From Sanguibacter antarcticus (GTDB lineage: Bacteria; Actinomycetota; Actinomycetes; Actinomycetales; Cellulomonadaceae): 64,000 nt of DNA. Location: the NCBI RefSeq assembly GCF_002564005.1, contig NZ_PDJG01000001.1:62001-126000 (forward strand). The letters run 5' to 3'. Of this stretch, positions 23,971 to 46,219 are shown piece after piece (the stretch's first letter is position 1; every line of letters starts with the position of its first letter). The translations under genes were made by a program, and so were the position numbers. The notes beneath the pieces were generated by a model, which was not told the origin of the DNA, did not search any database, and saw only the letters and a program-made list of their open reading frames with translations.

Positions 23971-25872
23971 GTGCGCGTGAGGCAGGCTGGCGGTCGTGTC
24001 GACGGTGCGCGCCGGGCTCTGTGGCACCTGCGCACGGGAGGTGTCCGTCAGCTGCGGACCTGGGCACGGCGCCGCCGGATCGCCGCAGGCCTGCCTGCGC
24101 GCTCGGGTCGTCTCGACCGTCATGGGCGGCTGACGTTCGACCCGTGGCCGCTCCCGGAGCGTGCCCCTCGACGCGCTGACCTGCGCGTGGGCGTCGTCCT
24201 CGACGACTTCTCCCGGCTCGCCTTCGGGTTCGAGTGGGAGCAGGTGCTGCTCGAGCCGTCGTCGTGGCAGCGGGTCCTCGAGGATCGGCCGGTCGACGTG
24301 CTCTTCGTCGAGTCGGCCTGGGCCGGCAACGGTGGGGCGTGGAGCTATCACCTCACCGGGCCGACCGCGCCGCGTCCGGCGTTCGTCGAGCTGGTGGCCT
24401 GGTGCCGCGAGCACGGTGTGCCGACCGTCTTCTGGAACAAGGAGGACCCGGCGCACTTCGAGGACTTCCTCGACGCGGCCCGGTTGTTCGACCACGTCTT
24501 CACGACGGACAGCGCCATGGTGCCTGCGTACCGTGACCGGCTGGGCCACGACAGGGTGGGGACGCTGGGCTTCGCAGCGCAGCCGGTGATCCACAACCCG
24601 GTGCGGGCGCACGGGCGCGGTCCGGAGCGTGACGTCGCCTTCGCGGGGATGTATTTCGCTCACAAGTATCCGGAGCGTCGTGAGCAGATGGACCTGCTCC
24701 TGGGCGCTGCCCATCGGGTGAGCGGCCGCATGGAGACGGGCCTGGAGATCTTCTCTCGTCAGCTCGGGGGCGACGAGCGGTACCAGTTTCCGGTTCCGTA
24801 TGCGGAGCACGTGGTGGGTTCGCTGACGTACGAGCAGACGCTCGCTGCGTACCGCGAGTACAAGGTGTTCCTCAACGTGAACTCGGTGGTGGACTCGCCG
24901 AGCATGTGCGCGCGGCGCGTCTTCGAGATCAGCGCGTGCGGCACACCCGTCGTGAGCGCACCGAGCGTGGCGATCACGGCGCTCTTCCCTCCGAACGAGG
25001 TCTTCACCGTGTCGGAGCCGGACGAGGCCGAGCACACTCTCCGCGCTCTGGTGCGCTCTCCGGAGCTGCGCGACCGTGCGACCCACCTGGCGCAACGGCG
25101 GATCTGGGAGGAGCACACGTACTCTCACCGTGCGGCGCAGGTGCTCGCTGCTGTCGGTATCGATGACGACGGTCTCCGGCGCCCGAGCGTCACGGCGATC
25201 GTGTCGACGAACCGCCCGCACCAGCTCGACCACGTGCTGCGGACCCTGGGCGCCCAGGTGGGCGTCCGCCCCCAGCTGGCTCTGCTGGCGCACGGCTTCG
25301 ATCCTGACTGGTCGGAGATCCGTGCCACGGCTCGCGACCTCGGCATCGACGACCTCGTGACGCTCACGGCAGACGCGAGCGTCACGCTCGGCGCGTGCCT
25401 CAACCTCCTCGTGGATGCCGCTGACGGCGACGTGGTCGCCAAGATGGACGACGACGACCTCTACGGCCCGCACTACCTCTCCGACCAGATGTACGCCATG
25501 GACTACAGCGGGGCAGACGTCGTGGGGAAGCAGGCGCACTACATGTACCTGGAGGCTCTCGACGCGACCGTGCTGCGGTTCGCGGAGAAGGAGCACCGGT
25601 TCACCGACTTCGTCATGGGCCCGACGATCGTCGCGTGCCGCGACGTCGCCCGTGCTGCGCGCTTTGCCGACGTGGCCCGCGGTGAGGACACAGCGCTGCT
25701 CCGGAGCGCGGACGGCCTCGGCGCCACGATCTACGCCGCTGATCGGTTCGGCTTCGTCCAGGTTCGGCACGACGACGTCGCTGCGCACACCTGGTCCGCG
25801 TCGGTGGCTGAGCTGCTGGCCGGTGGCGAAGTACAGCTTTTCGGGCGCGCTGACAAGCACGCCTTCGTCTGA
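23971..25872 (+). CDS. CgeB-like glycosyltransferase fused to a GT2-type domain
   Basis: A 633-residue protein. Residues of about 75-400 resemble the CgeB/DUF3880 class of GT-B glycosyltransferases (FVESAWAG, FWNKEDPAHFEDF, then NVNSVVDSPSMCARRVFE and CGTPVVSAP). Residues of about 405-600 look like a GT2 nucleotide-sugar domain (VTAIVSTNRPHQLDHVLRTL, KMDDDDLYGPHY). It lacks a signal peptide. It starts 145 bases after the chemotaxis genes and belongs to the high-GC background. A role in flagellin or cell-wall glycosylation is possible; substrate unknown. The GTG start is the most upstream plausible one. Confidence 0.75.
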   Translation: MRVRQAGGRVDGARRALWHLRTGGVRQLRTWARRRRIAAGLPARSGRLDRHGRLTFDPWPLPERAPRRADLRVGVVLDDFSRLAFGFEWEQVLLEPSSWQRVLEDRPVDVLFVESAWAGNGGAWSYHLTGPTAPRPAFVELVAWCREHGVPTVFWNKEDPAHFEDFLDAARLFDHVFTTDSAMVPAYRDRLGHDRVGTLGFAAQPVIHNPVRAHGRGPERDVAFAGMYFAHKYPERREQMDLLLGAAHRVSGRMETGLEIFSRQLGGDERYQFPVPYAEHVVGSLTYEQTLAAYREYKVFLNVNSVVDSPSMCARRVFEISACGTPVVSAPSVAITALFPPNEVFTVSEPDEAEHTLRALVRSPELRDRATHLAQRRIWEEHTYSHRAAQVLAAVGIDDDGLRRPSVTAIVSTNRPHQLDHVLRTLGAQVGVRPQLALLAHGFDPDWSEIRATARDLGIDDLVTLTADASVTLGACLNLLVDAADGDVVAKMDDDDLYGPHYLSDQMYAMDYSGADVVGKQAHYMYLEALDATVLRFAEKEHRFTDFVMGPTIVACRDVARAARFADVARGEDTALLRSADGLGATIYAADRFGFVQVRHDDVAAHTWSASVAELLAGGEVQLFGRADKHAFV

Positions 25873-25886
25873 GCAGGGGAGCTCGT

Positions 25887-27134
25887 GTGGAGAACATCAA
25901 GACTGTTGCTGTCATCGGCCTCGGGTACATCGGGCTGCCGACCGCGGCGATCCTTGCAACCCAGGGGCTCGATGTCATCGGTGTCGACATCAAGCAGTCG
26001 ACCGTCGATGCCGTGAACCGTGGCGAGGTGCCTTTCGTCGAACCGGACCTGGGCACCTACCTCGCGGGCGCGGTCAAGCAGGGGAACCTCTCGGCGAGCA
26101 CGAAGACGCCGGCTGCGGACGCGTACATCGTCGCGGTCCCGACGCCGTTCTGCGAGGACCACGCACCTGACCTGTCGTATATCGAGGCGGCTGCGGACGC
26201 GCTCGCGGAGCAGCTGGTCGGTGGTGAGCTCATCATCTTGGAGTCGACGTCTCCTCCGGGGGCGACGGCGCACATGGCGCAGCGCATCCTGGCGGCGCGA
26301 CCGGACCTGGATCAGGCGGACGAGCGGACGATGCTCTACTTTGCGCACTGCCCCGAACGAGTGCTGCCGGGACGGGTCATGATCGAGCTGGTCACCAACG
26401 ACCGGATCGTGGGCGGGTTGTCGGACCGAGCGGCTGAGCGTGCAAAGTCGTTGTATGAGACCTTCTGTCAGGGGGAGATCCTCCTGACGGACGCGAAGAC
26501 CGCTGAGATGGCGAAGCTCGTGGAGAACTCCTTCCGAGACGTGAACATCGCGTTCGCGAACGAGCTCTCCCAAATAAGTGATCGGCTAGATATCGATGTG
26601 TGGGAGCTAATTCGCCTCGCAAATCGGCACCCACGGGTCAATATTCTCCAACCAGGACCAGGTGTTGGTGGGCACTGCATTGCGGTGGACCCATGGTTTA
26701 TTGTCGAAGCAGCTCCGGATCTCGCTCACTTGATTCGCACGGCACGGCATGTGAATGATGCGAAGCCACAGTGGGTTATTGATAAGGTGTGTGCAAAGGC
26801 GGACCAGGTGGCTCAACCCGTGGTGGCGATCTTCGGCCTCGCATTCAAAGCGAATATTGACGACCTCCGGGAATCGCCAGCGCTAAAGATCGTCGACTCT
26901 CTCTCCCGTAGACGACCTTCGGCTCAATTCCTTGTCGTTGAACCGCATGTCAAACAGCTGCCCGAAGAGTTGATCAGCCGGGACAATGTGAGGCTTGTCG
27001 GTCTGGATGAAGCGGTGGAAAAAGCAAACGTAGCTGTTCTTCTAGTGGACCACGCAGACTTTGCAAGTGACAGCATCGATCCGATATCAGCAGCATTCGA
27101 GCATGTGGTAGACACTCGCGGAATGTGGCAATGA
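25887..27134 (+). CDS. wecC: UDP-N-acetyl-D-mannosamine dehydrogenase WecC
   Basis: WecC oxidises UDP-ManNAc to UDP-ManNAcA using NAD. The 415-residue protein has the N-terminal Rossmann motif VAVIGLGYIGLPTA, the ESTSPPGAT region, ENSFRDVNIAFANEL, and the catalytic cysteine in PGVGGHCIAVDPWF. Codons 1-228 use G/C third positions almost exclusively. From codon 229 (26571) the gene switches sharply to A/T-rich codons (CAA ATA AGT GAT) and stays so to the end, although the protein is intact. The gene therefore looks like a recombinant of two alleles. Its partner WecB is encoded about 15 kb downstream. Confidence 0.93.
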   Translation: MENIKTVAVIGLGYIGLPTAAILATQGLDVIGVDIKQSTVDAVNRGEVPFVEPDLGTYLAGAVKQGNLSASTKTPAADAYIVAVPTPFCEDHAPDLSYIEAAADALAEQLVGGELIILESTSPPGATAHMAQRILAARPDLDQADERTMLYFAHCPERVLPGRVMIELVTNDRIVGGLSDRAAERAKSLYETFCQGEILLTDAKTAEMAKLVENSFRDVNIAFANELSQISDRLDIDVWELIRLANRHPRVNILQPGPGVGGHCIAVDPWFIVEAAPDLAHLIRTARHVNDAKPQWVIDKVCAKADQVAQPVVAIFGLAFKANIDDLRESPALKIVDSLSRRRPSAQFLVVEPHVKQLPEELISRDNVRLVGLDEAVEKANVAVLLVDHADFASDSIDPISAAFEHVVDTRGMWQ

Positions 27135-29173
27135 TGAACCTGGACAAGTGGAAGATGCGGATGGCTTCAATTTCTGGTTACGCTGTCAAGCGTAAAAATC
27201 ATCTAAGTGTGTTTTCAGGTAAGGCCAGCGCTGCTCAGGTGCTGATTTGGGTCGCGACCGCGAGTGCAGTATCTGTTGTCCTCATCTCAGTGGACATCGA
27301 TCCGGTAATCGTCATAACTATTGCGATTCTGTTCGTTGCCAACGTAGCCCTCGTCGCGCGAGCTGAAAGGCGTCGAGATCTTCGTGAGGGGCGGATCGAG
27401 GCTACTCTTCGGAACGTGGCAGAGAATTCTATTCGAAACTCGAGAGAGTATCGGAGTTTGGAAAAGCGTGAGCCGTCGATACTGGAAGGTGAACTCTCTA
27501 AAGCAGTGGCCGTTGCGGTAACACCTCCCGAGTCGCACGATCGCATCTCACCACCAGCTCTGGTCGTTGCTAAACCACAGGACAGCGGCACATCGGCTCT
27601 CAGGCCAGTCAACGGAGTTGATTGGGCCGTTGAACGGCAGATTCTTCCGCGAGTGGTAACCAGAACCGACGTCGCGGGTGCGTATCGTGCTAGTAGAGGC
27701 ACAAAGGCCGAGCATGTCACGGTAGCAATAATCTGCGACGAATTTACCCACAATAGTTTCGCACCGGAGTTCGCAACCGTGCCGCTGTCGCCCGATATGT
27801 GGCGTGAGCAGATGGAAGAGTCTCGCCCCGAGTATCTTTTTTGCGAATCTGCTTGGGCTGGGGTAGATCCAGTCGCCCGGCCATGGCGAGGAAAAATCTA
27901 TGGAAGCGTGAAGTTTCCCTATGAAAACCGTCGGACACTCTTTGAAATCCTTGAGTACTGCAAACTGCAAGACATCCCCACGATCTTCTGGAATAAGGAA
28001 GATCCGACTCACTTCAGCGATCGTGTCAACGATTTTGTAGATACAGCCAGCAGATTTGACTACGTCTATACTACTGCTGAGGAGTGCATTGGAGAGTACC
28101 AGAAGTTTATGGGTGTGGGCAGGGTGGGGCTATTACCATTCGCTGCGCAACCGCGAATATTCCACCCGCTACCGCTGGCGCCGCGGCGAGACCGGGTAGT
28201 TTTTGCCGGTGCGTGGTACAGAGTTCATGAAGAACGTGCGCGTGTTACTCGCGAAATGTTCGACGCGATCATCGGGTCTGGCCGCGACCTTGCGATCTAC
28301 GACAGGGACTCAGGAATCGACTCACCTGAGCGAGGCTTCCCAAAAGAGTACCAAAACTTCGTACACCCAGCAGTTTCCCACGCCGCAACAGCAGAGCTAT
28401 ACCGAGGCTCGACAATCGGTATGAATATCAACACTGTGACCTCCTCTGAGAGTATGTTTGCGCGACGGGTCTTTGAACTTGCCGCGTCGGGGTCGATGGT
28501 CGTGTCCAACTACTCGCCAGGGATAGAACGATATTTCGGCGACTCAGTCATTTTCCTGGACCAGGTTCCCGGCGCACTCGGAGAACTGGACGAAAAGACA
28601 GTAGCTGAGAAGGCTCTGCAAGGTCTAGAGACGGTGCTGGAAAGCCACACCTATCGCGACCGTGCTCGGACTGTACTGACAACCTTTGGTCGCAAAGACC
28701 TCTCGCGGACGCAGTTGCCAACCTTGGCGTTTATGGTCGACTCGATACAAGGCGCTGAAACTGCATGTGGGATGTACCGCCGGCGCGCAAGCGAATTCCA
28801 CAAACTTCTCCTTGTGGTCGATGCGTCAATACCTTCCCATCGAGTCGGCGAGTTCTACACAGCATTCAATGACTCCATGTGTTCCGTGATCTCAGCACGG
28901 CTAGCGAGCCGGCAGACTGTCGATCCAGCACGTCTGATCGAGACCCCCGATCTGCTACTTGTGAGATCACAGATCCCGTCGAAGGCCATGGTGCGACGCA
29001 TGGTCCTTCATCGAGAATACTGGCTCGGTCCGATCGTCGAAGGCGCATCGCACGAACTCGCGTGGGGTGTCAGCCACCCTGGAAAACCGTCTCTGATTAG
29101 TGCTGCTGACCTCTTGTCGCTGGTGTTGCAACCACAATTCGCGGTCCCAGCTTTGGAGGTTCCATCCGCATGA
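27131..29173 (+). CDS. Membrane-anchored CgeB-like glycosyltransferase
   Basis: A 680-residue protein with two predicted membrane segments near the N-terminus (about residues 35-78), a linker, and a GT-B-like catalytic part. The catalytic part shares FCESAWAG, FWNKEDPTHFSD, FAAQPRIFHP and ESMFARRVFELAASG with the glycosyltransferase at 23971-25872. It lacks the GT2 domain of that protein; the C-terminal 150 residues are unassigned. ATG 27131 overlaps the wecC stop (ATGATGA); ATG 27134 is equally possible. The gene is entirely in low-GC codon style. Substrate unknown. Confidence 0.7.
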   Translation: MMNLDKWKMRMASISGYAVKRKNHLSVFSGKASAAQVLIWVATASAVSVVLISVDIDPVIVITIAILFVANVALVARAERRRDLREGRIEATLRNVAENSIRNSREYRSLEKREPSILEGELSKAVAVAVTPPESHDRISPPALVVAKPQDSGTSALRPVNGVDWAVERQILPRVVTRTDVAGAYRASRGTKAEHVTVAIICDEFTHNSFAPEFATVPLSPDMWREQMEESRPEYLFCESAWAGVDPVARPWRGKIYGSVKFPYENRRTLFEILEYCKLQDIPTIFWNKEDPTHFSDRVNDFVDTASRFDYVYTTAEECIGEYQKFMGVGRVGLLPFAAQPRIFHPLPLAPRRDRVVFAGAWYRVHEERARVTREMFDAIIGSGRDLAIYDRDSGIDSPERGFPKEYQNFVHPAVSHAATAELYRGSTIGMNINTVTSSESMFARRVFELAASGSMVVSNYSPGIERYFGDSVIFLDQVPGALGELDEKTVAEKALQGLETVLESHTYRDRARTVLTTFGRKDLSRTQLPTLAFMVDSIQGAETACGMYRRRASEFHKLLLVVDASIPSHRVGEFYTAFNDSMCSVISARLASRQTVDPARLIETPDLLLVRSQIPSKAMVRRMVLHREYWLGPIVEGASHELAWGVSHPGKPSLISAADLLSLVLQPQFAVPALEVPSA

Positions 29174-31131
29174 GCAGCGAATATTCGAACGAAAATCTCT
29201 TCCTGACCATAGTAGTTCCGATGTTTAATGCTCAGGATAAAATGGATCATTGTCTCGCGAGCCTGCGCGAACTACCGTCCGAACTGTCTCACGAAGTCAT
29301 ATTTGTCGACGACTCCTCGGACGACGGGACTTTTCAGCGGCTCGTTGCTGAGGCTTCTGGCGAGGATGCCTGGAGCGTCCTGACAACCCCCGAGAACACT
29401 GGCACGCCGTCTGCCGGACGAAACCTTGGAATTCGAGAGTCCAAGGGGGAGTGGGTGTTCTTTCTTGACGGTGACGACTCTGTTTGTCCAGACGGCCTGG
29501 CCTCCGGAGTCCAACGTGCGCGTGAAGGTGGTGTCGACATGGTTCGCGGATCAGTTGACCTTGTGCACGTGGGGGTTCGGGAGCTAACGATCGACCGGGT
29601 TGATCCAGCCGTGATGAGTTTTGATCGCGTGCGGAGAATCGCCACAATAGCCCAGGCGCAGAGCCTGACCTGCATGGCATTGATCCGTAAGAGTCTTCTT
29701 CTCGATAAGGGCATCTATTTCGACGAAAAGATCCGAATGGGTGAAGACATAGTCTTTACCGCACAGGCGTTAACTTCGGCCGTCGACGTCGCCTACATTG
29801 ATTCGTCATTCTTTAGATACTGGCGGCGCCAAGGAGGCGCAGAATCTGCAATGCACTCCCTTGGATCGAGAGAGATCTCGGAACTCGCTGACTCATGGAC
29901 GCGCGTTGAAGAAGCCTTTCAGCTTGTTGGGCTGAGTTATATCGAACTGCACGGCCTCAGCACCATCGGGTATGCTCTTCGACAATTGATTCAACATCGT
30001 CGTGAGAATATTTCGTATCAAGCTTTTTCGACGCTTTCTGCTTTTTCGGTGCGCTTTTCAGTCGCAATTCAACGTCTTGTATTTCCTGAGAGGCTCCAAC
30101 TCATCGTGGACTCTCTCACTTCTGGAAGCTTTCAAGATTTTGAACTCCAGATCCGACCCCGCCTTGTGATAGCCGGACACGACTTGAAGTTCATACGCGA
30201 CGCGGAACCCGAGCTTTCAACAGTGTTCACGATTCGATACGATGAGTGGCCATCGGAACGTGTCCATGACCGCGATGCTTCGACTGCGACTGCGGTATGG
30301 GCTGATCTGGTCTGGTGCGAATGGCTAACGGAATGTGCGGTGTGGTACTCCAACAACATATCGCCTCCGACAAAAATGGTGGTTCGTGTGCATCGGTATG
30401 AACTCGGGCGAACATATGGCGACCAGATCAACGAGACTGCCGTCTCGGCATTTGTCGCAATCGCACCGCACTGCTACGAAGATCTCGTCGATAGGTTCGA
30501 TTTTTCAAGGTCGAAGGTTCGGTATATTCCGAACTACTACCGCGTCTCTGAATATGAGCAGGGAACAGGGAAAGAACGGCTCAAGCGGCTCGCAATTATA
30601 GGTATCGCGCCGCGGAGGAAGGGCTACTTAAAAGCGCTCCAGGTTCTCGAGGATCTTCGGCGAGAAAATGGCGAGTATACGCTCACCGTCTTCGGCAAAG
30701 ATCCTCTTGAGTATCCGTGGATCAGCGGAGACCCAGAGGAGCAGGCCTACTATTCCGCTTGCAAGTCATTTATTGAGCAGAGCGACCTAGGTCGTTTCGT
30801 GATTAACGCGGGTTGGGTTGACACGAAACAAGCGACAAAGGACTTCGGTTTTGTACTTTCGACTAGCGAGCATGAGGGCTCTCATGTTGGACCGGGGGAG
30901 GCGTTCTGTGCGGGCAATCAAGGGGTGTTTCTACCATGGCGTGGGGTGGAATATGTTTACCCTGAGCGCTTTGTCTTCGAAACACCTTCGGCTATCGCGG
31001 ATCATATTCGTGCGAACCAGGAGGTCGAGCACTTTGAGAAGCTTGCGGCCGAGGGGCGATCTTTCATGGTCGAAACCTATGATGTTTCCCTCTTTCTTGA
31101 CCGTGTAGTGAAACTTTGGAAGTCACTGTGA
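29170..31131 (+). CDS. Two-domain glycosyltransferase (GT2 plus GT-B-like)
   Basis: A 653-residue protein. Residues of about 10-230 are a GT2 domain (LTIVVPMFNAQDKMDHCLAS, VDDSSDDGTF and the metal-binding DGDDS). Residues of about 330-650 look like a GT-B fold (IGIAPRRKGYLKALQVLEDL, FVINAGWVDTKQA, STSEHEGSHVGPGEAF). Two transferase activities in one chain are common in capsule and teichuronic-type loci. It overlaps the previous gene by four bases, and the next gene overlaps its stop. Linkage and donor sugars cannot be deduced. Confidence 0.78.
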   Translation: MSSEYSNENLFLTIVVPMFNAQDKMDHCLASLRELPSELSHEVIFVDDSSDDGTFQRLVAEASGEDAWSVLTTPENTGTPSAGRNLGIRESKGEWVFFLDGDDSVCPDGLASGVQRAREGGVDMVRGSVDLVHVGVRELTIDRVDPAVMSFDRVRRIATIAQAQSLTCMALIRKSLLLDKGIYFDEKIRMGEDIVFTAQALTSAVDVAYIDSSFFRYWRRQGGAESAMHSLGSREISELADSWTRVEEAFQLVGLSYIELHGLSTIGYALRQLIQHRRENISYQAFSTLSAFSVRFSVAIQRLVFPERLQLIVDSLTSGSFQDFELQIRPRLVIAGHDLKFIRDAEPELSTVFTIRYDEWPSERVHDRDASTATAVWADLVWCEWLTECAVWYSNNISPPTKMVVRVHRYELGRTYGDQINETAVSAFVAIAPHCYEDLVDRFDFSRSKVRYIPNYYRVSEYEQGTGKERLKRLAIIGIAPRRKGYLKALQVLEDLRRENGEYTLTVFGKDPLEYPWISGDPEEQAYYSACKSFIEQSDLGRFVINAGWVDTKQATKDFGFVLSTSEHEGSHVGPGEAFCAGNQGVFLPWRGVEYVYPERFVFETPSAIADHIRANQEVEHFEKLAAEGRSFMVETYDVSLFLDRVVKLWKSL

Positions 31132-32726
31132 ATAGCGAGGAGCTGCGCGGTTATGTGAGCGCCTATCGCGACTTCTCACCGCACGGCTGGAAAGGGGGTC
31201 CCGATGAAGCCGGCAGCGGCTTTGTCGTGACTCTACCCAATGGGTATAGTTTTTTAATTGACGCCTCGTACTTTCCGGTCGACTGGTGGAAAGTATATGA
31301 ATATAACCACGTAACGACGCGACTGTGGCAACGCTCCCTCTGCTATCTCCCGCTTCTTGCCGATCACATTGATGGCTGGCAGATCATCCAGTCGATGCTC
31401 CGTGACTTTTCTGCGCTAATGACTCGAGCCGTTGATGAACCGTCGATCCTTGGAATGAATAGCCTCGATCATTCGGTTGCGCTCCAACTGAGATCGCTGT
31501 GCACACTCCGTGCACAGCTTGCCTCGTTCGATACTCCCGATGCGATCTGGGTTGAGGAGATGGATTATCTGCTGAAGGGCCTTGTTTGCAGGTTGGAAAA
31601 CCTTGCCCGTTCCGAAGGCTTCCGCCTCGTGAATAATCATGGTGTAATGCTGGGCCTGGCGCTTATGCACTCACGAGCAGTATTTTCTGACATTGAACGT
31701 TCGAACCAGATGGTCGAGGAAGATGATTGCTGGATGATGACTGCTTTGGACGAGATCGTCGACTCCGACGGTCTCGTCTTCGAGAATACACCCCAGTATC
31801 AGCGGCTATATATTGATGTGATCGAGCAGATTGTTCAGGTATCTGGGGATCTACTCGGTGAGCTCGATAGGGTTGACGCGTATGATGGTCGTCTAAAACG
31901 TGTTGTCTCGGGATATCGCCATTTGCTTACAGCAGATGGGACCGTCCCTGCGATCGGAGACGCGCAACGTACGAAAGACAAGAAGTATCAATATCTTCCC
32001 GGAATCTTCTGCTCACCGCTGAATGGTCTATATATCCGTAACGCTCAGCGTGCTCAGTTGGTTGTGACATCTGGATGTCGATCGCATGTGCACAAACAGA
32101 TGGACGACACGGCCATTCGATTGATAGTCGACGATATCGACATGCTTCTTGACGGCGGCCTCATAAACTACGACTCGCACGATGCTGCTGCAGTTGCCGT
32201 ACGCGCACAGCCAGGACACAGTGGACTGTTCTTTTCAAGGTTTGACGATAGGCCGTGTCATTGGTTCTACCCTGCGGGAATGAGTGCTCGCATTGAAGCA
32301 TCAATAGGTCGAGTTACTGATCCTTCCGGGAGGGAAGTCGTTAGTTGCCGGTACGTGCTCGAAGAGATGTACGAAGCTCGGCGGGAAGTCGCAGTGAGAT
32401 CCGCTGTAGATTTCGTTGTCACGGATCGTTGCTGGGCACCGGAGCCTGCTTCGCAGCGATTCGTGCTCCCCCCGGCCTCGTGCATCGAGGTGTCAGGACA
32501 GGTTGTGACGGTCAGGTCACCGATTGGTCCTGTACTGAGGATCGAGGCTTTAGAAGGTAACAAGACAGTTCAATGGGGGATCACCAGAGTGAAGGTTGGC
32601 CTCGAACGCACGCCAGTTGAGACGTGGTCTCTCCAACGCCCCGTACCGCCTGGTGGAGGGCCTGTTGTGAGTCGCGTGTCCGTTTTCGAGCCCGATGGTC
32701 GGGCACTTTTCGAAGGGGGGCATTGA
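31128..32726 (+). CDS. Heparinase II/III family protein
   Basis: A 532-residue protein with a helical toroid-like N-terminal half (RSEGFRLVNNHGVMLG) and a beta-rich C-terminal half. The C-terminal half begins with a heparinase II/III-like metal/active-site stretch (CRSHVHKQMDDTAIRL, close to the HxHxD family pattern). Members are polysaccharide lyases that cleave uronic-acid glycans. No signal peptide is visible, so it may act in the cytoplasm or be a biosynthetic relative. GTG 31128 is chosen because it overlaps the previous stop (GTGA); TTG 31116 is the first in-frame codon. WecC supplies a uronic acid to the same locus. Confidence 0.72.
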   Translation: MNSEELRGYVSAYRDFSPHGWKGGPDEAGSGFVVTLPNGYSFLIDASYFPVDWWKVYEYNHVTTRLWQRSLCYLPLLADHIDGWQIIQSMLRDFSALMTRAVDEPSILGMNSLDHSVALQLRSLCTLRAQLASFDTPDAIWVEEMDYLLKGLVCRLENLARSEGFRLVNNHGVMLGLALMHSRAVFSDIERSNQMVEEDDCWMMTALDEIVDSDGLVFENTPQYQRLYIDVIEQIVQVSGDLLGELDRVDAYDGRLKRVVSGYRHLLTADGTVPAIGDAQRTKDKKYQYLPGIFCSPLNGLYIRNAQRAQLVVTSGCRSHVHKQMDDTAIRLIVDDIDMLLDGGLINYDSHDAAAVAVRAQPGHSGLFFSRFDDRPCHWFYPAGMSARIEASIGRVTDPSGREVVSCRYVLEEMYEARREVAVRSAVDFVVTDRCWAPEPASQRFVLPPASCIEVSGQVVTVRSPIGPVLRIEALEGNKTVQWGITRVKVGLERTPVETWSLQRPVPPGGGPVVSRVSVFEPDGRALFEGGH

Positions 32727-34453
32727 TGACGTTTGAGGTCGCGGATGCAGAATCCAGACCCACTCGAGTCTTTGTTTTCGGGAGTTGCGTTGGGCGCGAT
32801 AGCGTGGCGCTAGGTTCGGAAGTCGAGTCTACTCTTGTTGGTTACGTCGCGCGCCAGAGTCTGATTAGCGCCATGGGCGGTATGGTTAAAGGTGTCCCGA
32901 GTCTCGCGGAAACCCTCCCGTCTAAGTTTCAGCGCACGATGGTCGAAGGTGATCTTGCCGGAAATCTGACGGACGAGCTTCTGCGCCGGCGGTCTGAGAT
33001 TGATGTATTGCTTTGGGATTTAACCGATGAGCGATTTGGGGTACGTTCGTTTCGGGATGCCTTCTTTACGCCGTCTGCTGAGGCGAACGTCGGGTTTTCT
33101 GGAAGTCAACTTTTGGTTGACTCGGACCTGATCGACTTTGGCTCTGACGCGCATTTTGGTCTCTTCAAAGATGCTGCCTATCGTTTCTCCGCGTTCTTGA
33201 AGAAAAATAGTCTATTTGAATCGGTTTTGCTACTTGGCATTCCTCACTCCGGCTTGGTAACGGATGGAAACGATTCGTTGTTAGATCGTACTCTTGAGGC
33301 CCGTGCTGCGGAGGGCAACCGTTCGTTTGCGCGCTATCTGAAACTCTTGTCGTCAGAACTTGGGTTCGGCATGTTGGCGCTGCCTCATTCAGAAGTGTCG
33401 GTCGATAGTCATCATCGATGGGGCTTGGCCCCATTTCATTATTCGTCGTCTGTTTATAAGTCGGTCATGGAAGCGGTTCAATCTGTCAGTAAAGCGTCAA
33501 ATGGGGGGGAGTCTTCGTTCGCCTCTGCCCCACCGCGTAGGTTTAGCCGTCACAGCGAAACGCGACCAGTTTGGACCTGGGATTCTCTAGGTTCCTTTCT
33601 GTCAGGCGGAACGGTGGCGGCTGGCCATCATGTGGTTTTTGTCTCGAGCGGATTGTTTGTGGATTTTTTGGTGGTCGGAGACGTTGGCTCTAGCGCAACA
33701 CTACCTGTCTTCTTTACCGGCGCAATCAGTCAGGAGTACTCGCATTCTCCTGCATTCTCTGGTGTCGGACTTGCTTCTGAACTTGAGACTCCTGTAATTG
33801 CTTTTGCGGATCCTACTCTGAGCCATTCGCCTCGTCCCGTGATTGGCTGGTACTTGGGTGGCCAGTTTGGGAGCCCGGATTTAGCGATTGGGGCAATTCT
33901 GGAACATATTCGAAACGTGTATGGCTGCAAGTTCATCATGTGTGGTGGTTCTGGTGGCGGTTTTGCGGCCCTGAAGTTTGCTTCTCTGTCGACAGATTCT
34001 GGTGCGCTCGTCTGGAATGCGCAGACGGATGTGCTCAAGTATGGATGGTCTAGCGTGGACGCTTACCTTGCATCCGCCTTCCCGAGTGAGTATGTTCTGC
34101 GTGGGAAGAATGTCGATGCAGAGGAATGGCGTAGTGTGCTGGAAGAGTACAATATTGCTCCCTCCATACTCGATTTCAATACGATTGCGCGTCTGCGAAA
34201 GGTGTTGTTCCTGCAGCAGGCCTCCGATTGGCACGTCCAAGCACACTTCGAGCCGATGCTTGATGCTGCTGTTGCCCGCGAAGTGGTTTCGGGGCGCTGG
34301 CGTGCCCCAGGTGATCTTGTGTTGATGAAGAGGGAGTGGATGGGGTCTCACGCGCCCCCGTCTCGTGCAGTTCTGCTGTCTGCTCTAGGATCGCTCCTGA
34401 TGGGCTCTTCTGCATCGGAGGCGGCCGATGGGCTTGACGGCCTTAGCTGGTAA
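32726..34453 (+). CDS. DUF6270-like domain fused to an alpha/beta-hydrolase-like domain
   Basis: A 575-residue protein. Its first 260 residues match the SGNH-like DUF6270 pattern as I recall it (VFVFGSCVGRDSV, VLLWDLTDERFG, then HHRWGLAPFHY near the end of the domain). The C-terminal part has a hydrolase nucleophile elbow, MCGGSGGGFAALKFAS. ATG 32726 follows AAGGGGGG and overlaps the heparinase-like stop. It is the last gene of the low-GC island. DUF6270 proteins occur in capsule loci, where they are suspected of adding or removing glycan substituents; the exact activity here is unknown. Confidence 0.65.
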   Translation: MTFEVADAESRPTRVFVFGSCVGRDSVALGSEVESTLVGYVARQSLISAMGGMVKGVPSLAETLPSKFQRTMVEGDLAGNLTDELLRRRSEIDVLLWDLTDERFGVRSFRDAFFTPSAEANVGFSGSQLLVDSDLIDFGSDAHFGLFKDAAYRFSAFLKKNSLFESVLLLGIPHSGLVTDGNDSLLDRTLEARAAEGNRSFARYLKLLSSELGFGMLALPHSEVSVDSHHRWGLAPFHYSSSVYKSVMEAVQSVSKASNGGESSFASAPPRRFSRHSETRPVWTWDSLGSFLSGGTVAAGHHVVFVSSGLFVDFLVVGDVGSSATLPVFFTGAISQEYSHSPAFSGVGLASELETPVIAFADPTLSHSPRPVIGWYLGGQFGSPDLAIGAILEHIRNVYGCKFIMCGGSGGGFAALKFASLSTDSGALVWNAQTDVLKYGWSSVDAYLASAFPSEYVLRGKNVDAEEWRSVLEEYNIAPSILDFNTIARLRKVLFLQQASDWHVQAHFEPMLDAAVAREVVSGRWRAPGDLVLMKREWMGSHAPPSRAVLLSALGSLLMGSSASEAADGLDGLSW

Positions 34454-34674
34454 CGCTACTGGTAATTCTTCCCGATCGGCAGGTGGTGATTTTTTAGTGC
34501 ACATTAGGACCTAAGAAAGAGTAGGAGCCTATCTGGACGTGTATCTGGCCTTGGTGTCAAGGCGTGGAAGCAATGGTGGCGTTGAGGAGCTCTTCGAATT
34601 TCTCTCGCGGGGTGTAGAAGCCCAGGGCTGCTCGGGGTCTGTCGTTGAGCTCTTCGGCGATGGCGTCGAGGTAG

Positions 34675-34688
34675 CCTCGGGCTTTCAT
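34675..34688 (+). repeat. Left terminal inverted repeat of the IS1380-type element
   Basis: CCTCGGGCTTTCAT reads inward from the left end. It is preceded directly by the GTAG target copy at 34671-34674. Confidence 0.85.
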
Positions 34689-34795
34689 GGCGGGGTGGGT
34701 CTCAGTAGGTGTCATGACGCAAGAAAGTGCTCCTGACCTGGAAGAATACGGTTTGTTGAGGACCGATTCTGACTAGTTCGAGGAGCACCTTCAAG

Positions 34796-36190
34796 GTGAA
34801 GACTACCGTCGCGTATCCCCGTCTGAACATCGTCACGTCGGCGACGTCCGCGGTTGGTCAGGCTGGTGGGGTGCTGTTGACCGAGACGGTCCGGGCGACG
34901 GGTCTGGATCGGGCGTTGTCGACGGGCTTGGCGCGGTGGCGTAAGCCGACGGCGTTCCACGACCCGGGCAAGGTGATCGTGGACCTGGCGGTCGCCCTGG
35001 CGTTGGGTGGGGACGCGTTGGCGGACGTCGCGGTGCTGCGTGCCGAGCCCGGTGTCTATGGCGCGGTCGCCTCGGATCCGACGGTTTCGCGCACGATCGC
35101 GGCGTTGGCCGCTGATGCCCCGGCAGCGTTGGCGGCGATCAACACCGCCCGAGCTGCGGCCCGTTCGGCGGCCTGGCGCCTGGCTGGTGAGCGCGCCCCC
35201 GACGCGGGCGCCAGCGCGGTGGACCCTCTGGTCATCGACCTCGACGCGACGCTGGTCACGGCGCATTCGGAGAAGGAGAACGCGGCGCCGACGTTCAAGC
35301 GCGGGTTCGGGTTCCATCCCCTGTGCGCGTTCGTCGACCACGGCGGCGCCGGGACCGGGGAACCGCTGGCGATCATGCTGCGGCCGGGCAATGCCGGGTC
35401 GAACACCGCCGCCGATCACATCGCGGTTCTCCGAGATGCTCTGGCTCAGCTCCCTGGTCATGGCGGGCGGACGCGGGGCAGTAAGAAGATCCTGGTCCGC
35501 ACCGACGGCGCAGGCGGAACCAAAACCCTCATCGAATGGCTCACGACCCACCGCCTGGGCTACTCGGTCGGGTTCACGCTGCCTGGCAACACCCCCGACC
35601 TGCTGGCCCGCATCCCCGAGCGTGTCTGGGCCCCGGCCCTGGACGCTCACGACGAGGTCCGTGACGGCGCCTGGATCGCTGAGCTCACCGACCTGATGGA
35701 CCTGACCGCCTGGCCGGCAGGCATGCGCGTCATCGTTCGCAAGGAACGGCCCCACCCCGGCGCCCAGCTGCGTTTCGAGGACGTCGACGGGATGCGCATC
35801 ACCGCGTTCGTGACGAACACGCCAGCCGGTCAGCTCGCTGACCTTGAGCTGCGTCACCGCCGCCGCGCCAGGTGTGAAGACCGCATCCGCATCGCCAAGG
35901 ACACCGGTCTGCGCAACCTCCCCCTCAAGGCCTTCGCCCAGAATCAGATCTGGTGCGCCATCGTCGCCCTCGCCAATGACCTCCTGGCCTGGATGGGCAT
36001 GCTCGCCCTCACCGACCACCAGGCCCGCCGCTGGGAACCCAAACGCCTGCGACTACGCCTGTTCACCATCCCCGCGGTCATCGCCCGCACCGGCCGGCGC
36101 ACCTGGCTCCGCCTCTCCAACCGAGCGCCCTGGGCAGCGCTGGCCGCTCAAGCAGTCCAAGCCCTGCGAGCCCGACCCGCACCCGGCTGA
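34796..36190 (+). CDS. IS1380-family transposase
   Basis: A 464-residue DDE transposase. Recognisable features are the N-terminal LSTGLARWRKPTAFHDPGK region, the first catalytic Asp in VIDLDATLVTAHSEKENA, a second in LVRTDGAGGTKTL, and the C-terminal YSVGFTLP and RCEDRIRIAKDTGLRNLPL segments typical of IS1380. The start is GTG 34796, with GAGGAG about ten bases upstream. The frame is complete and has no disabling change, so the element may still be active. Its codon use is high-GC, unlike the island on its left. Confidence 0.9.
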   Translation: MKTTVAYPRLNIVTSATSAVGQAGGVLLTETVRATGLDRALSTGLARWRKPTAFHDPGKVIVDLAVALALGGDALADVAVLRAEPGVYGAVASDPTVSRTIAALAADAPAALAAINTARAAARSAAWRLAGERAPDAGASAVDPLVIDLDATLVTAHSEKENAAPTFKRGFGFHPLCAFVDHGGAGTGEPLAIMLRPGNAGSNTAADHIAVLRDALAQLPGHGGRTRGSKKILVRTDGAGGTKTLIEWLTTHRLGYSVGFTLPGNTPDLLARIPERVWAPALDAHDEVRDGAWIAELTDLMDLTAWPAGMRVIVRKERPHPGAQLRFEDVDGMRITAFVTNTPAGQLADLELRHRRRARCEDRIRIAKDTGLRNLPLKAFAQNQIWCAIVALANDLLAWMGMLALTDHQARRWEPKRLRLRLFTIPAVIARTGRRTWLRLSNRAPWAALAAQAVQALRARPAPG

Positions 36191-36346
36191 GCGCCAGCAC
36201 ACCCTTGACTCAACGACCCCCGCGCGACCACCCGGACCTGGAACCGGCGCCCAACCCGACGACACGGGACCATCTGTCATACCCACAAGGCAGAATCACA
36301 CCCGAGCAGGCGCCCTGACGCCCAAACGACCCACCTCATGAGCCCG

Positions 36347-36360
36347 ATGAAAGATCGAGG
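36347..36360 (-). repeat. Right terminal inverted repeat of the IS1380-type element
   Basis: CCTCGATCTTTCAT read on the minus strand. It is followed on the plus strand by the second GTAG copy at 36361-36364. Confidence 0.85.
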
Positions 36361-37402
36361 GTAGGGCTCGTGGTCGGTGATGACGGTGCCCTTGGGCAAG
36401 TACTCGCGAATGAGCCCGTTGGTGTTCTCGTTCGTGCCGCGCTCCCAGGGGGACCGGGGGTGGGCGAAGTAGACGGGCATCGTCGTGGCCAGTGTGAGGG
36501 CGCCGTGGCGGGCCATCTCCGAGCCCTGGTCCCACGTCAACGACTTGCGCATCATGGCCGGCAGGGAGTTCGCGTGCTCGATGAGCAGGTCCGCCAACGG
36601 GGCCGATGTTTTGCCCTGGGGCAAGCCCAGGATCACCACGAACCGGGTGGTGCGCTCGACCAGCGTTGCGACCGCGGAGCGGCCGAACGCCCCCACGACG
36701 AGGTCACCTTCCCAGTGCCCGGGAACCCGGCGGTCAGCGACCGTGGCGTCGCGGTCGTCGATGGGGACCATCCCCACGATCGGCCCGGTCCGTTCACCTG
36801 CAGGTTTGCGGGGCCGGCGAGCGATCCGCTTGGAGCGCAGCATCACTGCGTGCTTGGCGAGGTCGCCCTTGGGCAGGGCGTAGATGAACCGGTAGATCGC
36901 TTCATGACTGGCCGTGGCGCCGCCAGCAGCAGGGGAATGACTCACCCTCGCAACGGTGGGGCCGACCGCTTCCAGAAGCAACCGGCCTGCGATCTGCCGG
37001 GGCGTCCTCGAGCGCTTCAGATCCGCCAAGACCCGAGCCCGAAGCACTTCGTCACCAGCGACCTTGCCGACCTGCGGGCGCCGACGGTTGCGCTCAGCCC
37101 GACAGTCCGCCGTCACCAACCGGTACCCCAACGTCTTCGTCGAGTTCCGGACAATCTCACGGCACACGACCGACGGCGCACGGTCGATGTGAGCGGCGAT
37201 CCGGCGCATCGACCACCCCGCCTTGAGGCCCGTGGAGATCTCAACCCGATCAGCGATCGTCAACATCCTGCGCCCCACACCCGTACCCCTCGCCGACCAG
37301 CACTGTTGCTACGACGCTATGACACCAAGGGCTTGAACTGCGCCATGATCGCGACTGCTTTTTGTGAGCGCGAGATGTGACTCTGGTGTATTTTGCAGTC
37401 CG

Positions 37403-38308
37403 CTAGTGAGGCCGTGCGTGCCGAGGCCACGACCCACGCGCGATGGGCGTCGTGAGCTCGATCCGCGACGGCTGCCCGGCCTCGATCGCTTCCTTCAGCT
37501 GTTGCTTCGCCGCCGCGTGCTCGCCCTTGCTGACGTTCCACGCCCACGACCGGTAGCGCCGGGCAGTCTCCACCGCAGGCCCGTCGAGGACCACGCGACC
37601 ACGGTCGAGCCAGATCGCTCGCGTGCAGATCTCCTCGATCACCTGAGCCGCATGGCTGACCACGAAGACGGTTCCCGCATGGGCCCGCAGCTCTTCCATG
37701 CGGCGTTCGCTCCGCTCCTTGAACGCCGCATCGCCTGTCGAGAGGGCCTCGTCGATGAGGAGGATCTTCGGGTTGGCGGCCGCAGCGATCGCAAACCTCA
37801 ACCGTGCGCCCATCCCCGACGAGTACGTCTTCATCGGATAGTGGATCGCCTTGCCGAGGCCAGCAAGATCGACCACGTCAGGGATCAGACGCTCGGTCTC
37901 CTCCGGGGAGAGCCCCATCGCCAAGCAGCCCAGCCGGACGTTCTGCTCACCCGACAGGTCTGGCACGAGCGCAGCGTTGACGCCCAGCAGCACAGGGCTC
38001 GTCTCAGCCACCACCTGGCCGCGAGACGGGACCTCGAGACCAGCGATCACCCGCAGCAAGGTGCTCTTGCCCGACCCGTTGGTGCCGACGATGCCCACCG
38101 ACTCCCCCCGGTAGGCAGCCAACGACACGCCAGCGAGCGCGCGGACGAGCACCTTAGGCTGACCGCCCGTGACCTTGGTGAGCGCACGGGCAGATCGCGA
38201 GGACCTCGACGAGCTGACGTGCTCGGTGGACGGGACCCGATAGTGCACGTGGACGTTCGCGACCGCGACCGTGACGTCGTCCTCCCAGAACAACCTATTC
38301 GCGACCAT
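37403..38308 (-). CDS. Polysaccharide ABC exporter, ATP-binding protein (Wzt/TagH type)
   Basis: A 301-residue ATPase with Walker A GTNGSGKSTLLR, signature YSSGMGARLRF, Walker B ILLIDEAL and the H-loop VVSHA. The early HYRVP segment, the SGEQNVRLG spacing and the absence of a long carbohydrate-binding domain resemble TagH-type exporters of teichoic acid or O-antigen. It overlaps the permease gene upstream by 14 bases. The 3' end is only 72 bases from the IS30 end, but the protein is of normal length. With the permease it should flip a lipid-linked glycan across the membrane. Confidence 0.9.
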   Translation of the reverse strand: MVANRLFWEDDVTVAVANVHVHYRVPSTEHVSSSRSSRSARALTKVTGGQPKVLVRALAGVSLAAYRGESVGIVGTNGSGKSTLLRVIAGLEVPSRGQVVAETSPVLLGVNAALVPDLSGEQNVRLGCLAMGLSPEETERLIPDVVDLAGLGKAIHYPMKTYSSGMGARLRFAIAAAANPKILLIDEALSTGDAAFKERSERRMEELRAHAGTVFVVSHAAQVIEEICTRAIWLDRGRVVLDGPAVETARRYRSWAWNVSKGEHAAAKQQLKEAIEAGQPSRIELTTPIARGSWPRHARPH

Positions 38309-39167
38309 AGGTCTCCTCTCCTCTCCAGAAGAAGAGGAACCCGACGAGGAGGGCTCCGGCAGCCCATGCTCCGAGGACGGCCCACGATCTGAGGTCGGGT
38401 GTCTGGCCGTAGAGCAGCACGTCGCGCGTCATGTCGAGGACGAGGAAGAGAGGGTTGAGCTCGACCACCGCGAGGACCGTCGGGTGAGACACGAACGCGT
38501 CGAAGGAGAAGAAGACCCCGGATCCGTACAGCCAGAACCGTGTCACGAACCCGATGACGAGGTTGAGGTCGGGGACCCGCGCCACCATGCGTGCCGCGAG
38601 CAGCGCGATGCCGGTGTTGAACACCACCTGCAGAGCGAAGACGAGCGGGAACAACACCCACCGCCAGGTGACCACCGCATGGGGTGGGATCACCAGGACG
38701 AGCACCACCATGGAGACCACGACAGGAACCATGCTCAGCGTCTCGCGCAGCACAGCGGCGATCGGCAGCGCCGCACGCGGGAAGAGGAAAGACCGGATGA
38801 GGTTCCGCCCGCTCGTCACCGACGACGCCCCCGCGGAGAGGCACCGTGCCGTGAACTGGAACATGAACACGCCGATGAGCAGATAGCCGATGAAGTTCTC
38901 GATCCCGCGGCTCGACTTGAGGACGAGCCCGAAGATCACGAGGAACACGAGCCCGTTGAGCATCGGATTGAGCACGAGCCAGACGTTCCCCAGCACCATC
39001 TGACGCGTGCCGCTCGTCACCCGTGCGCGGGAGTCCGCGACGATGAAGTGTCGGCGGGTCCACAGCTGCGACACATAGTCGCGCAGCGCAGGCCGACGAC
39101 CCACCGGGTGCAGACCCTGGAGCTGCACCACGGCGAGCTGTTGCCCCGCAGCTCTCTCGACGCTCAT
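38295..39167 (-). CDS. Polysaccharide ABC exporter, permease (Wzm/TagG type)
   Basis: A 290-residue protein with six hydrophobic segments typical of ABC-2 exporters (LGNVWLVLNPMLNGLVFLVI, FIGYLLIGVFMFQF, SGRNLIRSFLFPRAALPIAA, NPLFLVLDMTRDVLLYG). The amphipathic N-terminal region before the first helix (YVSQLWTRRHFIVADSRARV) fits Wzm/TagG. It lies between the ATPase gene and a GT4 glycosyltransferase, overlapping both, so the four minus-strand genes form one operon. Confidence 0.9.
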   Translation of the reverse strand: MSVERAAGQQLAVVQLQGLHPVGRRPALRDYVSQLWTRRHFIVADSRARVTSGTRQMVLGNVWLVLNPMLNGLVFLVIFGLVLKSSRGIENFIGYLLIGVFMFQFTARCLSAGASSVTSGRNLIRSFLFPRAALPIAAVLRETLSMVPVVVSMVVLVLVIPPHAVVTWRWVLFPLVFALQVVFNTGIALLAARMVARVPDLNLVIGFVTRFWLYGSGVFFSFDAFVSHPTVLAVVELNPLFLVLDMTRDVLLYGQTPDLRSWAVLGAWAAGALLVGFLFFWRGEETYGRE

Positions 39168-40981
39168 ACCGCTACCCCCCGGTGCGCGACGCTGCGCATC
39201 ACCTCACGGTACGTGGCACCCACAGATCCCCACGTCCGCGTCGAGGCGAACGCACGGCCGCTCGCGCCCAGCGACGCCCGCAGCGCCTCGTCCGACGCAA
39301 GCTCCTCCAGCACGTCAGCGAGCGCTCCCGGGGCCTCGGGGGAGACGACGCGTCCGCTGCCAGGCGCGGTGACGAGCTCGGCCAGCGCAGGCAGGTCGCT
39401 CGCGACGACCGGGCGTGCGCACGCCATCGCCTCCACCGGCTTGAGCGGCGTCACGAGCCGGCACACCCGGAGGTCTCGTCGAGGAACGACGAACACGTCG
39501 AGCGCCTGGTGGTGCACCGCGGCTGCGGCACGGGGGACCCGACCGGTGAACGTCACCGCGGATGCGACCCCGAGGGCACGCGCCTGAGCCTCGAGCCCTG
39601 GTCGGGACACCCCGTCCCCGACGATCAGGCCGCGAGCGTCGATGCCGCGTCCTCGCAGCTCGGCGATCGCGTCGACGAGGGTGTCCAACCCTTCGTAGTC
39701 GACGAGGCTCGAGACCGTCCCGACCCAGAAGCCGTCCTCGGGCAGCCCGAGCGCCCGACGTGCGGCGGCGGGGGACAGGCTGGTCGTCAGCAGTGCTTCG
39801 TCGACAGCGTTCGGCACGACGGTGATGTGCGCGTCGGGGATCCCCCGCTCGACGAGCTCGTGACGCAACGTCTCGCTCAGCGTGAAGACGTGGTCGGCGG
39901 CCAGCGCCATCTCGGTCTCGCGAGCACGCAGCACGGCGTACTTCTCGCTCGTCGCGGCACGCTCCTGCTCGGCGACGCTGGGCCGGCTGGCGACCCACGT
40001 CTCCTCGAGGAGCCCGCGGACCTCGTACACCCACGGGATGCCGAGCCGCTGCGCTGCCGACCGCGCGACGACGGCGTTCATGTAGTTGGTCGTCGCGTGC
40101 AGGATGTCGGCACCGTGCGCACGGGCCACGGGGACGAGCCGGTCGACGGCGTCGAGCACCCGCTCGTGCGCGGTCCGCTCAGCGACCGGTGCGATGAGCC
40201 GGTGGTAGGTGATGCTGTCGACGACGTCCGTGTGCCGAGCGTCGATCCGGCCGATCGAGACGGGATAGCCCAGGCGCGTGACAGCGGCTGCCTGGAGCCC
40301 GGCGCTCTGCTGCGCGAGCAGCACCGAGTGGCTGCGCTGCGCGTAGCCGCTCTGCGTGTGCGGCAACGAGTTCGTCAGGACGTGGAGCACGCTGAGCGCC
40401 GACGGTCCGGACATCGACGACGGCTCCGACGCCTCTGGCGGCATCGACGTCCGGGTGGTCTGCGGCGGCGTCGGGTCTCCCGCGAGCGCGCCCGGGGTCA
40501 TGACGTGCAGCTCGGACGCGAGCCGTGCGTGCAGCGCGCGCGTCGAGCGGTGAACGTCGGCGGCGGTGACCGCGGCGGTGAGGTCTCCCTGGCTCCACAG
40601 TGCGCGCGCACGTATGGCGGGGAAGCGTTCTAGGACGAGGTCCGGTACCAAGGACGTGCAGCCGAGCTGGACAGCCATCTCGCCGTGCAGACGCGACCGC
40701 CACCCACCCGGTCTCGGCGTGGGGACCTGCGCCAGCACCGATCGTGCCTCGTCTGGGCGGTCCACGAGCCAGAACCCCGCCGCACGCCGGACCGACCCCT
40801 CGCGTCGTGCGCCCGAGCGCAGCGCACGGCCGGCGGCTTCCCGGGCCCGGCGCGGCAGGCGCCGGCTCGTCTGGAGGACGAAGTTCAGCGGGTCGTCGGT
40901 GAGGTGCCTGGCCGACGTGGTGCCTGCGAGCGCGACGTTGCACACGAGCTCGCCCAGCCGTGCAGGGGCGAGGAAGGTCAT
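39164..40981 (-). CDS. GT4 glycosyltransferase with an extra N-terminal domain
   Basis: A 605-residue protein. The GT4 (GT-B) part starts near residue 205 (VLHVLTNSLPHTQSGYAQRS) and contains VYEVRGLLEE, VVPNAVDE, VGTVSSLVDYEGLDTLVDAI and PLKPVEAMACARPVVASDLP, the donor-binding motifs of this family. The first 200 residues are Ala/Arg-rich and helical-looking, with no family I recognise. The ATG at 40981 overlaps the stop of the upstream gene (ATGA). The frame is open further upstream, but that part is antisense-like filler. Confidence 0.85.
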   Translation of the reverse strand: MTFLAPARLGELVCNVALAGTTSARHLTDDPLNFVLQTSRRLPRRAREAAGRALRSGARREGSVRRAAGFWLVDRPDEARSVLAQVPTPRPGGWRSRLHGEMAVQLGCTSLVPDLVLERFPAIRARALWSQGDLTAAVTAADVHRSTRALHARLASELHVMTPGALAGDPTPPQTTRTSMPPEASEPSSMSGPSALSVLHVLTNSLPHTQSGYAQRSHSVLLAQQSAGLQAAAVTRLGYPVSIGRIDARHTDVVDSITYHRLIAPVAERTAHERVLDAVDRLVPVARAHGADILHATTNYMNAVVARSAAQRLGIPWVYEVRGLLEETWVASRPSVAEQERAATSEKYAVLRARETEMALAADHVFTLSETLRHELVERGIPDAHITVVPNAVDEALLTTSLSPAAARRALGLPEDGFWVGTVSSLVDYEGLDTLVDAIAELRGRGIDARGLIVGDGVSRPGLEAQARALGVASAVTFTGRVPRAAAAVHHQALDVFVVPRRDLRVCRLVTPLKPVEAMACARPVVASDLPALAELVTAPGSGRVVSPEAPGALADVLEELASDEALRASLGASGRAFASTRTWGSVGATYREVMRSVAHRGVAV

Positions 40982-43524: not shown

Positions 43525-43696
43525 GCCGAGGATGCTCCCACCGCGACCACCGGAACCAGGGGAGTGACGCGCCGAGCGCACCACGTGCACCCGCCCCGAC
43601 CAGACACGCCCCGCCCCACCTCGGCACGCCGCCGCGCAACGCGATCGGCGCGTGGCAGCATGTCCCGCGGACAGGTTGGACTTCCAAGGGGGCGCC

Positions 43697-46138: not shown

Positions 46139-46151
46139 CGCACCATCTCAC

Positions 46152-46192
46152 GACGACCGAGGGCCTCCGGATTCCGGGGGCCCTCGGTCGTC
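46152..46192 (+). terminator. Terminator after the LPXTG protein gene
   Basis: A perfect 14-bp stem, GACGACCGAGGGCC (46152-46165) with its complement at 46179-46192, and a 13-base loop. It is followed by TCTCGC and starts 13 bases after the stop codon. Confidence 0.85.
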
Positions 46193-46219
46193 TCTCGCAC
46201 GGGAGCCACGGAGGACCGC

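Follow-up and report, generated by a model that had tools for sequence, protein, structure and literature searches.

Organization of the locus

The 64,000-nucleotide window analyzed here is part of the 3.52 Mb genome of Sanguibacter antarcticus, which is assembled as one contig, and at 27131..34453 it holds four plus-strand genes, here called A to D, that are real, intact and translationally coupled, with neighboring genes overlapping by 1–4 bases. They make up the variable cassette of a locus of about 11 genes that also contains wecB, wecC, an ATP-binding cassette (ABC) exporter and three further glycosyltransferase genes. We consider it likely that A–D form an exchangeable cassette within a locus for an ABC-exported, teichuronic-acid-like surface polymer of the N-acetylmannosaminuronic acid (ManNAcA) type. 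This reading is based on the family membership of WecB and WecC, the conservation of the locus, the recurrence of the cassette and its foreign composition; the structure of the polymer and all of the enzyme activities are predictions.

The left arm, on the plus strand, begins with a conserved core gene for a 633-residue CgeB-type glycosyltransferase (23971..25872; PF13524, 8.9e-23), followed by wecC, encoding UDP-N-acetylmannosamine (UDP-ManNAc) dehydrogenase (25887..27134; NF008286 equivalog, 581 bits against a cut-off of 459). Gene A (27131..29173; PF13524, 3.6e-14) encodes a membrane-anchored CgeB-type glycosyltransferase with hydrophobic windows within residues 32–79, and gene B (29170..31131; PF00535, 4e-23) encodes a double glycosyltransferase that joins a GT2 half to a GT-B-like half, the latter giving a weak match in the window protein and one of 5.2e-6 in the homologue from genome G215. 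Gene C (31128..32726) encodes a heparinase III-fold, probably cytoplasmic protein predicted to act on uronates as a C5-epimerase or lyase, and gene D (32726..34453) a 575-residue protein that consists of a DUF6270 module and a half resembling CsaC, the O-acetyltransferase of the meningococcal capsule.

The other arm is convergent, on the minus strand, and includes the exporter, whose polysaccharide-export-type ATP-binding subunit (37403..38308; PF00005) has TagH/Wzt models as its top NCBIfam matches, under cut-off, and whose ABC-2 type permease (38295..39167; PF01061, 6.4e-11) matches NF050109, also under cut-off; overall, the top matches of the exporter are teichoic-acid and galactan exporters, below the cut-offs of those models. 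Next to it are a GT4 glycosyltransferase (39164..40606; PF13692/PF00534), a 412-residue GT4-type glycosyltransferase, GT412 (40978..42216; PF13579, 7.2e-14), and wecB, encoding UDP-N-acetylglucosamine 2-epimerase (42370..43530; PF02350, 7.6e-110), the coordinates of the GT4 gene and wecB being those of the homologous part of a longer frame with an approximate start. Since wecB is the sole Epimerase_2 match in the whole genome, UDP-ManNAc for the polymer should come from this gene. The locus carries features of the teichuronic-acid type, namely the uronate-sugar precursor genes wecB and wecC together with an exporter. Four clustered genes for LytR-CpsA-Psr (LCP) ligases lie at 358158–363216 of the same contig, about 250 kb away; their presence would allow attachment of the polymer to the wall but does not by itself establish it.

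Conservation and probable exchange of the cassette

Distribution figures rest on genome scans. One comparator is Oerskovia douganii Sa1BUA8 (G194), placed in the same family in the grouping used, which has all eleven genes in two convergent arms, with wecB at the opposite end of its arm, adjoining D. The tblastn identities are 69% for CgeB, 71% for wecC, 55% for A, 66% for B, 58% for C and 53% for D in the left arm, and 67% for the ATPase, 58% for the permease, 53% for GT4, 73% for wecB and 50% for GT412 in the other arm. In G690, a 2.1 Mb genome from a different family of the order, the order A-B-C-D is kept, with gaps of 1 and 12 bases and then a 4-base overlap, and the cassette adjoins GT4, GT412, wecB, wecC and the exporter. 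Genome G778 belongs to yet another family; its exporter, GT4 and GT412 genes are accompanied by CgeB, DUF6270, a GT-B half like that of B and a short match to C. G215 and G227 have matches to A, B and DUF6270 and none to C. In G002, also a Sanguibacter, the flanking genes are kept (ATPase 78%, permease 78%, GT412 77%, CgeB 75%), and the slot of A–D is occupied instead by a 1,113-residue GT2/CgeB-type frame and two other frames.

Gene C is rare by single-sequence search, being found in 4 of 221 family genomes with the window genome included. By profile it occurs in 6 of 200 genomes of the family of G690 at E 1e-10, again counting G690, and in 21 of 396 genomes of the order at E 1e-5; the latter include the window genome, G690, G778 (4.9e-13) and G633 (1.1e-11), and the other 17 are weaker matches, mostly over 120–190 positions in longer frames, that we do not count as relatives of C. 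Relatives of C that reach at least E 1e-10 come from 13 loci, those of G778 and G633 among them, and in 11 of these the stretch fetched also contains a wec gene, an exporter, CgeB or DUF6270. The query P0004 alone found nothing in 393 other genomes of the class or in 38 other relatives, and gave no confirmed match in genome contigs or plasmids; profile A1 gave no confirmed match in viral contigs, and query P0005 matched five plasmid records, each over one domain only. In Pseudomonas putida NBRC 14671, a heparinase-like gene is flanked by two DUF6270 genes and accompanied by CgeB-type and GT4 transferases (L015, 7236–21276), so that the same association of families is seen in a gammaproteobacterium.

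Composition also sets the cassette apart. The guanine-plus-cytosine (GC) content of A–D is 52.7–54.5% in the window, and across the genes from CgeB to D third-position GC falls from 86% to 55%, with the best single breakpoint at base 26,573, inside wecC (support 26,561–26,576, log-likelihood gain 154). In Oerskovia third-position GC drops near the wecC/A junction, and the GC of A–D is 54–57%, compared with 63–74% in the other locus genes measured; the cassette of G690 has 42–45%, compared with 47–51%. Loci for capsules and O-antigens that exchange their types have conserved flanks, a low-GC variable middle and a composition break inside a conserved gene. The window locus shares all three features, and differs in belonging to a Gram-positive actinobacterial family and in having wecC as its anchor gene. 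The pattern fits exchange of the cassette through recombination within the conserved genes on its flanks, as judged from composition. Three observations weigh on the other side: the neighboring helicase gene in G690 likewise has 42% GC, the GC of A and B in G215 is not low, and the window wecC is closer to that of Oerskovia in all four of its quarters.

A preliminary description of this DNA had proposed that four overlapping, low-GC genes of foreign composition constitute a candidate system of their own that may make and trim a ManNAcA-containing surface glycan, and it had called for a search for their co-occurrence elsewhere. The overlaps, the low GC and the foreign composition are all borne out, and the same four genes in the same order recur in two further genera, one of them in another family. 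The idea of a free-standing four-gene system is not upheld, as A–D belong to a larger locus and are what varies in it, but as a conserved unit the four genes stand. A ManNAcA glycan gains support from the presence of wecB and wecC in the locus, from wecB as the only Epimerase_2 gene, from the exporter matches and from the retention of the locus in Oerskovia. The locus offers a defined, swappable unit with enzymes open to testing, and the chemistry of C and the role of DUF6270 are the parts of most interest.

Gene C, a possible lyase or epimerase

The predicted structure of C has the heparinase III fold, a helical toroid followed by a beta-sandwich, at 8–14% identity to the listed solved lyases. 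The window and Oerskovia proteins score 19.2 and 22.5 bits against PF07940, both below the gathering score of 24, which is reached by the homologues in G690 (29.4), G165 (28.6), G117 (31.8) and P. putida (34.3). The catalytic Asn/His, Tyr, His and Tyr of the lyases are kept as NNH, ENxxxY, HK and Y(D/Q) in the 10 alignment rows that cover them; the G953 row covers the first two motifs only, and that of G194 was read from a separate alignment. No hydrophobic leader is evident by hydropathy, as no 19-residue window exceeds 1.6 and the highest is 1.11, and on this basis C is probably cytoplasmic and would not share the secreted or periplasmic location of PL12 lyases.

Human dermatan sulfate epimerase is built on the same fold, which makes a polymer C5-epimerase a live alternative to a lyase. 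In fold, and at the His/Asn, Tyr, His and Tyr positions, C appears similar both to the PL12 enzyme heparinase III and to human dermatan sulfate epimerase 1 (DS-epi1); it differs from them in having no hydrophobic leader and in lying within a biosynthetic locus (PMC8006597). The residues do not discriminate between the two activities, since the His/Tyr/His/Tyr set of DS-epi1 occurs in heparinase II too (PMC8006597). The structure 6hzn, used as the test for DS-epi1, matched C in Foldseek at 6.0e-8 and was absent from the best 50 VIA matches.

The competing possibility, in which C acts as a lyase for trimming or quality control and, by beta-elimination of the uronate polymer, sets chain length or clears stalled chains, is a serious one that we would put somewhat short of even, and it competes with the epimerase branch only and not with the reading of the locus as a whole. 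Given that C has no hydrophobic leader, it would as a lyase have to act on the polymer during its assembly. If it is related to C, the heparinase-like VV0358 of Vibrio vulnificus also points away from a lyase, being among the genes whose mutants look capsule deficient; its authors nevertheless discuss it in terms of a heparinase/lyase (PMC6037467). For the uronyl epimerases of lyase fold, C is a candidate relative from bacteria.

The C-terminal half of gene D

CsaC is, by a narrow margin, the best match for this alpha/beta-hydrolase-like half of D. It comes first by sequence profile (E 0.0017) and also by structure, where its chains hold the four top VIA ranks and the fifth goes to 6oyc_B, which we take to be Gap2/Asp2 of the Gap123 glycosylation complex. 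Identity between D and CsaC is about 11%. In D, S409 lies in a GXSXG motif and the triad-extending Q433 follows 24 residues later, as do S114 and Q138 in CsaC; D501 and H542 are also present, the Asp falling in two neighboring alignment columns among seven full sets. The second His, H201 in CsaC, comes two positions after the Asp in the window, G194, G690 and G215, and three positions after it, the CsaC spacing, in G083, G132 and G010. Across 14 aligned halves of the D type, the CsaC-type Gln is present in eight of nine that have the Ser and in none of the five that do not.

The preliminary description had labeled D a hydrolase. The match to CsaC and the Ser, Gln, Asp and His residues make its C-terminal half look more like an O-acetyltransferase, a role thereby suggested for a protein half that has no Pfam name. 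Removal of acetyl groups by a de-acetylase (esterase) is in our view unlikely, both from the CsaC chains that precede 6oyc_B in the structural ranking and from the way the Gln tracks the Ser. The trimming that was earlier ascribed to the cassette accordingly survives as one of the two readings of C, and for D acetylation is likelier. CsaC/SacC of Neisseria meningitidis serogroup A acts on a ManNAc polymer, and D resembles it in predicted fold, nucleophile elbow, Gln at Ser+24, Asp and His, and differs in having an N-terminal DUF6270 module and in that its donor and acceptor are putative (PMC7501274). In five other DUF6270 fusions (L022, L036, L037, L040 and L045) the hydrolase half has no Ser, Gln or His in the aligned columns and is probably non-catalytic.

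The DUF6270 module

DUF6270 is found in 45 of 221 family genomes, and A-like proteins (at E 1e-20, and for the most part the CgeB paralogue of the core) are likewise found in 45 of 221, with 42 genomes in common (Fisher 6e-38, uncorrected for relatedness). The two lie within 20 kb of each other in 39 of these 42 and on different contigs in the other three; one DUF6270 row (G197, 32 bits) was left out of this comparison, and G197 is in both sets anyway. We read 30 of the 53 DUF6270 loci with 1.5 kb flanks, and these have a wecB match in 22 and an exporter ATPase in 24. The 30 proteins comprise 11 sulfotransferase fusions (10 over the Pfam cut-off and L018 below it), eight whose C-terminal half aligns as alpha/beta-hydrolase-like, one GT2 fusion, L034 with an unnamed C-terminal part, and nine too short for another domain; beyond these, L011 gives a further fusion, with a hexapeptide region at 2.6e-5, below cut-off. 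DUF6270 is thus an N-terminal module common to sulfotransferase, hydrolase-fold and glycosyltransferase proteins adjoining wecB. The sulfotransferase fusions (L017, L018, L019, L026, L027, L028, L031, L032, L033, L041 and L043) have a wecB match in all 11 loci, which suggests that relatives make sulfated ManNAcA-type polymers.

Within the module S20, placed in the model after the first strand, and H238, before the last helix, are invariant in 29 sequences. Hydrolases of the SGNH type usually carry a DxxH motif, and the Asp of this motif is absent from DUF6270. A profile search of the PDB with DUF6270 gave no match up to E 10, in the structure search with D the matches were taken up by the other domain, and no paper in the literature library searched names DUF6270.

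Proposed pathway and related systems

In the pathway that we propose, WecB and WecC would make UDP-ManNAcA, the core transferases would start the chain and add the common sugars, and the membrane-anchored A, together with B, would add strain-specific sugars. Before export, C would abstract the proton at C5 of a uronate in the chain, and in so doing either epimerize this uronate, from ManNAcA to N-acetyl-L-gulosaminuronic acid (L-GulNAcA), or cleave it. The C-terminal half of D may transfer acetyl from acetyl-coenzyme A to a sugar hydroxyl by a CsaC-like Ser-Gln-His-Asp mechanism, while the DUF6270 half may bind or edit the polymer. Export of the polymer by the ABC exporter would follow, and its attachment to the wall may be the work of LCP ligases. 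A more specific version, which we offer tentatively and would not expect to hold in full, is that C is a cytoplasmic heparinase-fold polymer C5-epimerase converting ManNAcA to L-GulNAcA before export and that DUF6270 is a common polymer-handling module with interchangeable acetyl, sulfo and glycosyl decorators on ManNAcA polymers. C would in that case be the bacterial counterpart of dermatan sulfate epimerase.

The teichuronic acid of Micrococcus luteus is a ManNAcA-glucose polymer, and it resembles the predicted polymer in its acidic sugar and in being a wall polymer that membrane-associated transferases build in an actinobacterium; the present locus, whose polymer is predicted from genes, adds a heparinase-fold enzyme and a fusion of DUF6270 with an acetyltransferase-like half (PMC3005890). 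The utrA–J genes of Streptomyces are likewise a variable actinobacterial locus, one whose uronate-containing wall polymer is O-acetylated and whose transferases vary. They differ in that the utr polymer, which is joined to wall teichoic acid, contains 2,3-diacetamido-2,3-dideoxymannuronic acid (ManNAc3NAcA) (PMC13274773). The terms heparinase, wecB and ManNAcA do not occur in the main text of that paper, where actinobacterial polymers of the teichuronic-acid type are described as poorly characterized and one of them as a toxin receptor (PMC13274773). The locus seems to be a variant, little described so far, among the loci for ABC-exported, ManNAcA-type polymers and not a new kind of locus; a literature search found no description of the four-family set, which is no proof that none exists.

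Flanking genes and transposases

The chemotaxis cluster to the left of the locus ends at about 22,934, and this proximity, together with a CheX gene near the G165 locus, could indicate that the locus serves to glycosylate a surface protein, such as flagellin, instead of making a polymer. CgeB-type transferases occur in glycoprotein pathways, which also counts for such a role. We nevertheless judge it improbable, as an ABC-2 exporter belongs to the locus, neither cheA nor CheX of the window has a match in the 60 kb stretch fetched around the Oerskovia locus, and the G690 locus has a gene for an SNF2 helicase on one side. In G165, another genome of the family, the window's CheX and its neighboring 245-residue protein recur at L010, 15982–17804, near a locus with wecC and a heparinase-like gene.

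Between the two convergent arms of the polymer locus lie a DDE_Tnp_1_4 transposase gene (34796..36190, plus strand; PF13701, 1.2e-78), presumably of IS1380 type, and an IS30 family transposase gene (36277..37278, minus strand; NF033563, 1.6e-64); the Oerskovia locus has no transposases. A short remnant at 34560–34720, just before the first element, looks by eye like a transposase end. That these insertions directly downstream mark the cassette as a decaying island, cut off and without current function, is very improbable, as they break no locus gene and each of the four frames is open and matches its Oerskovia counterpart over almost its full length (in the listed frames the alignment starts at residue 32 of A and residue 31 of D). 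Two proteins follow the locus on the plus strand at 45611–47104: one has a match to the LPXTG-anchor family PF00746, and the other carries the L,D-transpeptidase domain PF03734.
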